From Dictyobacter vulcani (GTDB lineage: Bacteria; Chloroflexota; Ktedonobacteria; Ktedonobacterales; Ktedonobacteraceae): a stretch of DNA of 64,000 nucleotides. A model generated the notes under the pieces. It did not search any database and was not told the DNA's origin. It saw nothing but the letters and a program-made list of their open reading frames with translations. Numbering within the stretch: the stretch's first letter is position 1; every line of letters starts with the position of its first letter. The position numbers were made by a program, and so were the translations under genes. The DNA is taken from contig NZ_BKZW01000002.1 in the NCBI RefSeq assembly GCF_008974265.1, positions 1,488,001 through 1,552,000 of the forward strand, in the 5' to 3' direction. Of the stretch, positions 13,068 through 33,998 are shown piece after piece.

Positions 13068-14645
13068 ATGGCTGTCGCTTTACTGCTGGTACGACTCCTG
13101 CTCTCATTCATTTTCCTGCTTGCTGGCCTGGCCAAACTGGCTGATCTGGCGGGATCGCAAAAAGCCTTGCGTGATTTTGGGCTTCCGGACGTACTCGCCA
13201 GACCGCTGGGAAGCATATTACCTATTGTCGAAATTGTGCTTGCGGTCGGGCTTGCGTCGCGCGTCTGGTCCGGGTTGGCTGCTCCAGGAGCGCTGATACT
13301 GCTGCTCGTTTTTTGTGCAGGTATCGGCTATAACCTGGCCCGTGGACGTAAACCGGATTGTCACTGTTTTGGACAACTGTACTCAGCTCCAGCGGGTCCT
13401 GCGGCGCTTGGACGCAATGCTCTACTAGCGTTGCTGGCTCTGGCTGTGACCATATTTGGGAGCAGAAGCACCAGCATGAGCGCCACGAGCTGGTTTACTG
13501 CCAGGCCCATGTTGCAACAGCTTATGCTTCTGCTCGCGATTATCGTTGTGCCGCTGCTCATAGGCGGTGGCTGGCTATTACTGCAAGCACTGCGTCAACA
13601 AGGACTGCTGTTGCTGCGTCTTGATCGTGTTGAGAATCGCCTCGGGCAGGCTGGCATTTTGTTGGAGAAGACGCAAGAAGAAGAGTCTGGCACTGGATTG
13701 CCCGTTGGAGCACCGGCTCCAGCATTTTCAGGCAAAGGACTGGATGGCGAGATCATCTCCCTGCATGGCTTGCTGGCCGTTGGCAAGCCTGTGGTACTTG
13801 TCTTTACTGATCCTGACTGTGCTCCCTGTGCAGTGCTCATACCTGAGATCGGGCGCTGGCAGCGAGCATATGCCAGTAAGCTAACGGTGGCTTTATTGAG
13901 TCGCGGTACGGTTGAAGCTAATCGCGCGAAAACGTCTGAGCATCACATCACACGTATCGTGTTACAAAACAGTGACGAGCTTGACAAACTTTATGCCATC
14001 CATGGCACCCCCAGCGCGGTACTTGTCCATGCTGATGGTCTGATTGAGAGTCCGGTCGCCGCAGGTATAGAGAGCATACGGACCCTGGTAGCGAATACGG
14101 TACATCTACCCGTCTGGCGACGGCGGTTGCCTGTTGTCGTGGCAGGCAATAACAACAGCGCCGCTCCCGAACTCCAAGCACCCGCTATTGGTACACCCGC
14201 CCCGGCTTTCAGTCTGCCTGATTTGAACGGTGAGACGGTGGACTCGAACTCGTTGCGTGGTCAGCCAACGTTGTTACTCTTCTGGAATCCAGACTGTGGC
14301 TATTGTAAGAATATACTCCCAGACTTGCATGCATGGGAAGCCGAACCGCCTCAGGGAGCGCCGCGCCTGTTGATCATCTCGAGTGGAACGCTAGAGCAAA
14401 ACCGCTTGCTGGGCTTGCGCGCCCCTGTTTTGCTCGGTGAAGACACCAATGTGCGGGCACAATTTGGTGCCACCGGTACACCAATGGCCATCCTGATAGA
14501 TGCCCAGGGAAAGATCGCATCGGCCCTGGCGCAGGGATCATTTGAGGTACTGAGACTTGCCTATCAAAATCCAGCAGCAGATGGAGCACAATTCCCCGAT
14601 ACGCCCGACGAGAAGCAAATTCCTACCGTGAGTGAGCATCGGTAA
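13068..14645 (+). CDS. MauE-type membrane protein fused to two thioredoxin/TlpA-like domains
   Basis: 525 residues. ATG at 13068 with GAGGGGAG upstream. The N-terminal ~130 residues form four membrane helices of the MauE/DoxX type, carrying the loop cysteines of DCHCFGQL. One more helix (near residues 150-175) and a short coiled linker lead to two thioredoxin-fold domains: the first has FTDPDCAPC (CAPC) near residue 253, the second FWNPDCGYC (CGYC) near residue 410. Each domain has its conserved cis-proline loop (GTPSAVL; GTPMAIL). MauE proteins pass electrons across the membrane to an extracytoplasmic thioredoxin, so this is probably a self-contained disulfide relay. Confidence 0.85.
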   Translation: MAVALLLVRLLLSFIFLLAGLAKLADLAGSQKALRDFGLPDVLARPLGSILPIVEIVLAVGLASRVWSGLAAPGALILLLVFCAGIGYNLARGRKPDCHCFGQLYSAPAGPAALGRNALLALLALAVTIFGSRSTSMSATSWFTARPMLQQLMLLLAIIVVPLLIGGGWLLLQALRQQGLLLLRLDRVENRLGQAGILLEKTQEEESGTGLPVGAPAPAFSGKGLDGEIISLHGLLAVGKPVVLVFTDPDCAPCAVLIPEIGRWQRAYASKLTVALLSRGTVEANRAKTSEHHITRIVLQNSDELDKLYAIHGTPSAVLVHADGLIESPVAAGIESIRTLVANTVHLPVWRRRLPVVVAGNNNSAAPELQAPAIGTPAPAFSLPDLNGETVDSNSLRGQPTLLLFWNPDCGYCKNILPDLHAWEAEPPQGAPRLLIISSGTLEQNRLLGLRAPVLLGEDTNVRAQFGATGTPMAILIDAQGKIASALAQGSFEVLRLAYQNPAADGAQFPDTPDEKQIPTVSEHR

Positions 14646-14707
14646 AGGAAACTGCAGGCTTTATCACTGAACAATGTCATTATATGTGAAATGCAAACAA
14701 GAAAAAG

Positions 14708-14748
14708 ATCCATTCCGGACGCTTATAGGGAAAAGAACCGGAATGGAT
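14708..14748. terminator. Hairpin after the MauE-thioredoxin gene
   Basis: ATCCATTCCGG (14708-14718) pairs perfectly with CCGGAATGGAT (14738-14748), an 11-bp stem. Only a short T-run follows, so it is a plausible but weak terminator. Confidence 0.5.
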
Positions 14749-14817
14749 TTCCGCGTTGAAACCTCCTATGCTATTATGTTGCACGGATGCAATTTTATGT
14801 TAGCAAAGGATGTGCTA

Positions 14818-15170
14818 TGTGACACTCCGCACGCCCTGAAGGGGCGGCGGCTTCTTGCACTCCTACGTAGTCGGCCCCCTGAGTCGGTGCCTCGTTGAGG
14901 CAACTCGTTGAAGACCGTAGTGGGTGAGGAATACACTCAAGCACAGATCCACACATCTGCTCGCTTGAAGGGCGGTGCCATGCCTGTTCACCGTTTCATG
15001 CCGTACCCGACGGGTGTGCAGCCAACGTCGGGTGTTTGGCGACCTGGAAAGGGTGAACACCTTTCTCTTTCGAAAACTGATGCATGCATCAGTGGGAGGC
15101 TTTTCTTGAACGATTTTGCCTGGCAACACTTCCTAAGGCCGTACAGCCTGTGCTGTCGTGCCTTCGTTGC
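14818..15170 (+). mobile_element. Structured IS200/IS605-superfamily remnant, possibly a standalone omega-RNA (IscB/HEARO-like)
   Basis: About 350 bp with no convincing protein but rich in short stems: GCACGCCCTGAAGGGGCGGC at the left end, GGTGCCTCGTTGAGGCAAC, GTACCCGACGGGTGTGC, AAAGGGTGAACACCTTT, and the perfect 18-bp palindrome ACTGATGCATGCATCAGT at 15076-15093. This GC-rich run of hairpins resembles the noncoding end of IS605-type or IscB loci, whose omega-RNA precedes the nuclease gene. No iscB or tnpB follows. The assignment is pattern recognition and needs a covariance-model search. Confidence 0.4.
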
Positions 15171-15541
15171 ACCTATGCAGTATAATCCAACCATGCATTC
15201 TATGCAACAAGCAAGGGCTAAAGCCCAGGAGAAACCCGCCTATCCGCCTGGGTTTAAACCACAGCGGCTTGCGGCGGGTTACGCTTTTGTCACTCTTAAC
15301 ACTATTTGGTGCAGCGGCGGTCAGTATTATGCTGCTCGCGTATGCTCTGGAAGCTCGTTCTCATCTCTGGGTATTGATCTTTGCCTTCGCGTGCGCGGCC
15401 TCATCTCTGTATGGATGGCTCTCTGGAACCTGGCCTTTTGGGGTTGTCGAAGGTATCTGGGCATTGGTTGCCCTGCGGCGCTGGTGGCGTCTGCGTCTAT
15501 CCTTTGTTCCGCCTGACGAGCCTGCCTCGATGGTCGAATAA
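15158..15541 (+). CDS. Small two- to three-helix membrane protein, start disturbed
   Basis: The conserved-looking part is the last ~85 residues: LLSLLTLFGAAAVSIMLLA, HLWVLIFAFACAASSLYGWL and FGVVEGIWALVALRRWW, giving two to three membrane helices with a basic end. The family is unknown. The alternative frame starting at 15175 or 15202 (MQQARAKAQEKPAYPPGF, then KPQRLAAGYAF) looks more like a natural N-terminus and would need a frame change near 15285. Either the gene carries an indel or the element just upstream replaced its original start. Confidence 0.5.
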   Translation: MPSLHLCSIIQPCILCNKQGLKPRRNPPIRLGLNHSGLRRVTLLSLLTLFGAAAVSIMLLAYALEARSHLWVLIFAFACAASSLYGWLSGTWPFGVVEGIWALVALRRWWRLRLSFVPPDEPASMVE

Positions 15542-33562: not shown

Positions 33563-33620
33563 GTACTTCTCTAGTAGCACTCTTTTACCGTATACTTACG
33601 CATATAAAAGGTTGTGGTGA

Positions 33621-33998
33621 GTCAGGTACCCCACGCCTCTGCGGCGGGGGCTTGGAGAAGGGGTGATTGCTGCCCGTCTTCTCCAGGTCCGGACCTGACC
33701 AGACCCAGCCAGGGGTGCTTGCACCCATCGGGCTACGATACCGGACGTGTCAAAGAACCTACCAACGCGTGCTTGCCAGCGCGTTGCTCTAGAACTTCTC
33801 AGTTAACCAGTCAGACGGGGTTCGAGGCAGTGCTGAGAAGATGTGCAGGCCGGTATCATCGTCGAGGCACACCTTACCTGGGAAACCAGTGGGGTTTGAC
33901 CGTTCCCACCAAAAACGGTCTCCCGCAAGGGACGACACACAAGGAACAGCAAACAGGAGGCGTGCTTCCTCCCCATGCCTGAAGGCAGGGGTACCCGC
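33621..33998 (+). mobile_element. IS200/IS605-type element lacking tnpB (nonautonomous)
   Basis: Left end: subterminal hairpin CCCCACGCCTCTGCGGCGGGG near 33629-33649. Right end: hairpin CCCCATGCCTGAAGGCAGGGG at 33971-33991. Between them are several stems (CTTCTCAG...CTGAGAAG; GACCGTT...AACGGTC) but no transposase or tnpB. The open frame across it has a spurious composition. TTAC just left of it (33595-33598) could be the target site. The right-end part resembles the omega-RNA scaffold of TnpB elements. The element boundaries are estimates. The surrounding 33270-33620 and 33999-34124 hold no gene. Confidence 0.6.

Follow-up and report, generated by a model that had tools for sequence, protein, structure and literature searches.

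A miniature IS605-type element in Dictyobacter vulcani carries a standalone TnpB-type guide RNA

In TnpB systems of the ISDra2 type, the guide RNA (reRNA or omega-RNA) is the 3′ part of the tnpB mRNA. Its scaffold joins the tnpB 3′ end to the RE, a 3′ hairpin lies beside the RE end, the flank beyond RE serves as guide, and the sequence before LE is the TAM (PMC8612924). Palindrome-associated transposable elements (PATEs) have IS605-type ends but no transposase genes and are thought to move in trans; they have been described as ends only or as remnants (PMC7290912, PMC3119063). Examples are a Halanaerobium PATE-like sequence that has kept 58 nt of tnpB along with a complete RE (PMC7290912) and the core-deleted, ends-only forms of IS605 elements in Haloquadratum (PMC3119063). 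HEARO RNAs (RF02033) without iscB, finally, are nuclease-less copies of the IscB-type guide RNA, which is located at LE and has its guide at the 5′ end.

The locus described here lies in a 64,000-nt stretch of the Dictyobacter vulcani genome, termed the window and numbered from its first base. In sequence and structure, the minus-strand RNA at 14819–15171 qualifies as a TnpB reRNA; its carrier is PATE-like. As in the ISDra2 type, a scaffold of tnpB 3′ end and RE is followed by a guide from the flank beyond RE, the TAM is the sequence before LE, and a 3′ hairpin lies beside the RE end. Unlike the ISDra2-type reRNA, it has no tnpB beside it and is likely its own transcription unit, driven from a promoter in LE. 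With the PATEs, the carrier shares IS605-type ends, the lack of transposase genes and the supposed movement in trans. In contrast to the known ends-only forms and remnants, it holds a full guide-RNA scaffold, bears the marks of structural selection, is present in 15 copies and belongs to a lineage found in two genera. The Halanaerobium sequence is possibly an analogue present in a single copy; its description makes no mention of a guide RNA (PMC7290912). HEARO copies without iscB provide a parallel in the same genome and window, whereas the RNA studied here sits at RE with a 3′-terminal guide and is not matched by the HEARO model. Our search of open-licence papers found no description of guide-RNA-only elements of this TnpB type. 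The locus comprises the following features:

14819–15288, minus strand: non-autonomous IS605-type element, delimited by the repeat ends, the reading frame of the empty site and a relative's empty site; LE at the higher coordinates, RE at the lower
15289–15292, minus strand: TAM/target TGAC (GTCA on the plus strand), host sequence directly before LE, as read from the copies
15196–15288, minus strand: LE with an imperfect subterminal hairpin; 15203–15292 is ~95% identical to LE of the resident 2.15-kb tnpA-tnpB elements
15179–15207, minus strand: promoter-like TTGCAT-17-TATACT (−35 at 15207–15202, −10 at 15184–15179), read from the sequence and positioned as before tnpA in the long elements
14819–15171, minus strand: standalone TnpB-type guide RNA (reRNA), predicted transcript body of ~353 nt; conserved block, z −4.14
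14819–15107, minus strand: reRNA scaffold (~290 nt), homologous to the tnpB 3′ end and RE of tnpB-bearing elements
14827–14850, minus strand: RE subterminal hairpin, which is also the 3′ hairpin of the reRNA (helix 13); shared unchanged with most resident long elements
14798–14818, minus strand: putative guide, the host flank at the predicted RNA 3′ end, ATAGCACATCCTTTGCTAAC..., different at each copy
14707–14749, minus strand: host hairpin followed by CTTTTTCTT (T-run), possible transcript terminator; z −3.30, loop too long for the automatic scan
15289–15541, plus strand: body of a small host membrane-protein gene, its start codon split by the element (AT at 14817–14818, G at 15289); the joined flanks restore ATGTCACTCTTAACA in frame

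With 14700–15300 as query, a repeat unit of 475 bp (14819–15293) was found 15 times in the own genome at 92–100% identity. At additional loci of this genome only the two ends match, ~2.15 kb apart, and these are tnpA-tnpB elements. Because both ends match those of the long elements, 15203–15292 was assigned to LE and 14819–14869 to RE. The mini-element of 470 bases (14819–15288, minus strand) is of IS605 type and non-autonomous, having kept LE and RE without tnpA and tnpB. Its autonomous relative's ends, its many insertion sites and the lack of a target-site duplication at the copies examined identify it as a PATE. As the initial annotation had proposed for an IS605-superfamily guide RNA, no nuclease gene lies beside it: tblastn detected no tnpA, tnpB or iscB in the window, nor any in the flanks of short copies. 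Since the own-genome copies have no adjacent tnpB, the RNA is called standalone. One short copy of Ktedonobacter racemifer (L069/L171) is located ~1.2 kb from a complete element. Plasmids gave no match, and viral contigs no exact match to the standalone-specific pattern. A lone ~72-nt RE fragment (L045 3283–3358; G000:C3:83291–83362) that is followed by a guide flank but lacks an adjacent LE is a remnant of a mini-element.

The resident ~2.15-kb elements encode a 136-aa Y1 transposase TnpA (PF01797, 3e-35; NF033573, 131 bits) as well as a TnpB-like protein, which has a TNB domain (PF07282, 45.3 bits) and in which the D..E..D pattern of RuvC is uninterrupted, both genes running opposite to the plus strand of the window. 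The tnpB gene encodes up to 504 aa and is broken in some copies; against the NCBIfam TnpB model the protein scores 97.3, just under the cut-off of 100. Further, the genome contains a second, different tnpB (L110, G000:C1:3932622–3933917) with its own reRNA (C1:3933913–3934196), which is 60% identical to the standalone scaffold. The L110 protein is a possible alternative partner nuclease for the standalone RNA.

On the minus strand, 14819–15171 folds with −140.3 kcal/mol (z −4.14), and none of 100 shuffles was equally good; the plus strand including the flanks gave a fold z of −3.33. It is confirmed that 14818–15170 is noncoding and structured beyond chance. The 353-bp alignments and the 15 copies show the span to be a real unit, and the borders first drawn around this hairpin-rich stretch proved almost exact. 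The plus-strand reading, however, has to be given up, as the conserved RNA lies on the minus strand. Loci in G025 and G023, genomes of another genus of the same family, aligned with 14818–15170 over 353 bp at 73–74%, and other copies gave shorter matches at 72–75%. The minus-strand stretch 15107–14819 can be aligned from end to end with the tnpB 3′ end and RE of tnpB-bearing elements, both from the own genome and from further genomes of this family. Related copies beside a nuclease gene, which had been anticipated, are thus present as tnpB-linked copies in both. Two ORFs, 14863–15129 (minus) and 14908–15516 (plus), were rejected as coding: they are not TnpB-like, and the block is accounted for as RNA.

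The covariance model R2 was built from 26 tnpB-linked copies alone, with no standalone copy included. It matches the window copy over its full length (1–296) with 190.9 bits and E 6.2e-52; other standalone copies tested reached 137–209 bits. For the joint alignment of 39 RNAs, 63 consensus pairs are predicted, 40 of them with two-sided compensation. Paired cells amount to 94.0% compared to 74.2% in shuffled controls, and covariation to 0.525 compared to 0.173 shuffled and at most 0.122 slid. The RNA hence matches the RNAs of tnpB 3′ end and RE in sequence and structure; tnpB genes of the cognate type are found elsewhere in the genome rather than adjacent. Within the own genome, this reRNA family counts 29 full-length RNAs and one fragment, and by position 15 of the 29 are standalone while 14 follow tnpB genes or remnants.

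The initial annotation had suggested a possible IscB/HEARO-like RNA. This reading, an IscB omega-RNA (HEARO) that lost its nuclease, is refuted and has practically no probability left: HEARO (RF02033) gave no match at 14500–15500 up to E 10, the strong match to the tnpB-linked RNA model is on the other strand, and the ends belong to tnpA-tnpB elements. In its favor stand the other iscB-less HEARO copies of the genome, including one in the window at 33621. No other Rfam family matched 14818–15170 beyond chance, even at E 10; weak matches to mir-4889, snoZ242 and BcKCsr2 fell far under the gathering scores and were dismissed as chance. In the Rfam scan of the window, HEARO at 33621–33877 was the only family found. 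This standalone IscB-type omega-RNA (99.7 bits) sits between P-type ATPase and acetyltransferase genes on a mini-element of roughly 370 bp (33614–33990) with end hairpins. Seven HEARO copies of the own genome are without iscB and three with it. Standalone IscB omega-RNAs are known from Ktedonobacter.

In LE of the long elements, TTGCAA-17-TATACT is found just ahead of tnpA, and at the corresponding position the standalone Ktedonobacter copy L048 shows TTGACG-17-TATAAT, which scores 11/12 and has an extended −10. The promoter-like site of the window copy is weak by consensus (8/12) and lies below the cut-off of the automatic promoter scan, which returned nothing for the window. From this site, the RNA would start at ~15171, cover the scaffold and extend into the flanking DNA, which would supply the guide. 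The predicted start coincides with the beginning of the 353-bp conserved block. Downstream, the host hairpin and T-run at 14749–14707 could end the transcript.

In the phylogenetic tree, the standalone copies form a single clade with a support of 100/100, separate from all tnpB-linked ones, and the clade includes copies of the own genome as well as of another genus. Every record found to have the standalone-specific pattern belongs to Ktedonobacter (K. racemifer, K. robiniae, K. sp. SOSP1-85). When only standalone copies were tested against the structure derived from tnpB-linked ones, covariation was 0.236, with shuffled controls at 0.117 and slid ones no higher than 0.074; two-sided changes occurred at 15 pairs, of which 10 lie beyond the RE hairpin. 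This alignment was fitted to the tested structure and control (a) leaves relatedness in, a caveat lessened by the slid control and the pairwise test. In the latter, the window copy and the Ktedonobacter copies (71–74% identity) keep 61–64 of 73–75 pairs, whereas 46–48 are expected from independent change. These comparisons indicate that the RNA stayed under structural constraint after losing tnpB.

The element could instead be a dead deletion derivative (PATE) of IS605, in which only the DNA ends matter for TnpA acting in trans and the RNA-like interior is a passenger. Non-autonomous derivatives of this kind are known, as the Halanaerobium (PMC7290912) and Haloquadratum (PMC3119063) cases illustrate. 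Against it speak the compensatory changes that keep the structure between standalone copies of two genera, the fact that 10 of the 15 pairs with two-sided change fall outside the hairpin at RE on which TnpA depends, the conserved promoter position ahead of the RNA, and the retention of the full-length scaffold by one standalone lineage across genera. We therefore regard a dead derivative as unlikely.

As a separate observation, the two ends of the short element (14819–14869 and 15203–15292) share 95–96% identity with the ends of the resident long elements, and its interior is nearer to the Ktedonobacter standalone copies than to resident tnpB-linked reRNAs. This pattern gives the impression of an exchange of ends that adapted the element to the local TnpA.

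TGAC precedes LE in 13 of 13 long copies and in 10 of the 11 short copies parsed, the exception being L013 with TCAC; a TAM thus stands before LE, as in TnpB systems. L004 and L009 share the LE border of the window copy. The RE end always reads GTGTCAC and is followed by a flank that is different at every copy, so that the predicted RNA 3′ end falls on the RE border and the flank would be the guide. A guide just left of ~14820 had been suggested at the outset, and its place is correct; since the RNA runs on the minus strand, however, the guide forms the 3′ end (14818 downwards) and not the 5′ end. Joining the flanks yields ATG TCA CTC TTA ACA CTA in frame with the small membrane-protein gene, and the same-genus genome G003 has an uninterrupted homologue, i.e. 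the empty site. Consequently, the element is placed inside the start codon, beside GTCA (plus)/TGAC (minus). As the membrane-protein body is open from within LE (ORF 15158–15541), a fusion product is possible.

TAM plus guide of the window copy does not occur elsewhere in the own genome; at the occupied site itself, the guide is preceded by TCAC instead of TGAC. The lack of another TAM-adjacent match would also suit an RNA that binds TnpB for a function other than retention, be it as a decoy titrating TnpB or as a guide through which TnpB, or a relative without nuclease activity, would regulate host genes, and 15 standalone RNAs would indeed compete with 14 tnpB-linked ones for TnpB. There is, however, no sign of a fixed host target, and the guides differ per site, as transposition predicts, which makes such a role very unlikely in our view.

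We consider it likely that the locus is a miniature IS605-type transposon, which consists of nothing but its ends and a complete gene for a TnpB guide RNA and is moved and retained by TnpA and TnpB in trans. Homology, compensated structure, shared ends, TAM, empty site and 15 dispersed copies have been documented above, and action of the window RNA in trans is plausible. In the proposed mechanism, the LE promoter, which stands in front of tnpA in complete elements, would drive the ~353-nt RNA, whose body is the tnpB 3′-end/RE scaffold and whose last ~20 nt would be copied from DNA outside RE. TnpA of the 2.15-kb elements would excise and insert the mini-element in trans by single-strand peel-and-paste, following the ISDra2 model (PMC8612924). 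TnpB made elsewhere in the genome would load the window RNA, and the complex may then cut the empty site (TGAC plus guide) left after excision, upon which repair from the sister copy would restore the element, again as modeled for ISDra2 (PMC8612924). The element would itself escape cleavage at the occupied site, where RE has TCAC rather than TGAC. Points against this reading are the window copy's own promoter of only 8/12, the resident TnpB below the NCBIfam cut-off and the broken copies among the tnpB genes; the diverged scaffold, with its interior closer to the Ktedonobacter standalone copies, makes binding by the resident TnpB less certain.

The element thus probably persists by borrowing the enzymes of larger relatives in the same genome. 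We see even chances for a wider interpretation: a self-sustaining, guide-RNA-only lineage of mini-transposons that parasitises complete elements, using their TnpA to move and their TnpB to be retained by RNA guidance, its tnpA promoter turned into a guide-RNA promoter, with TnpB- and IscB-type guide-RNA-only elements coexisting in one genome. The locus suggests that a transposon can persist with no more than a guide RNA of its own. It would represent a natural two-part system with nuclease and guide unlinked, resembling a step towards the CRISPR-like separation of effector and guide. With 15 natural guides in one genome, it offers a directly testable case of a trans-acting reRNA, and some IS605 mini-elements would need to be reinterpreted as guide-RNA genes with a function.
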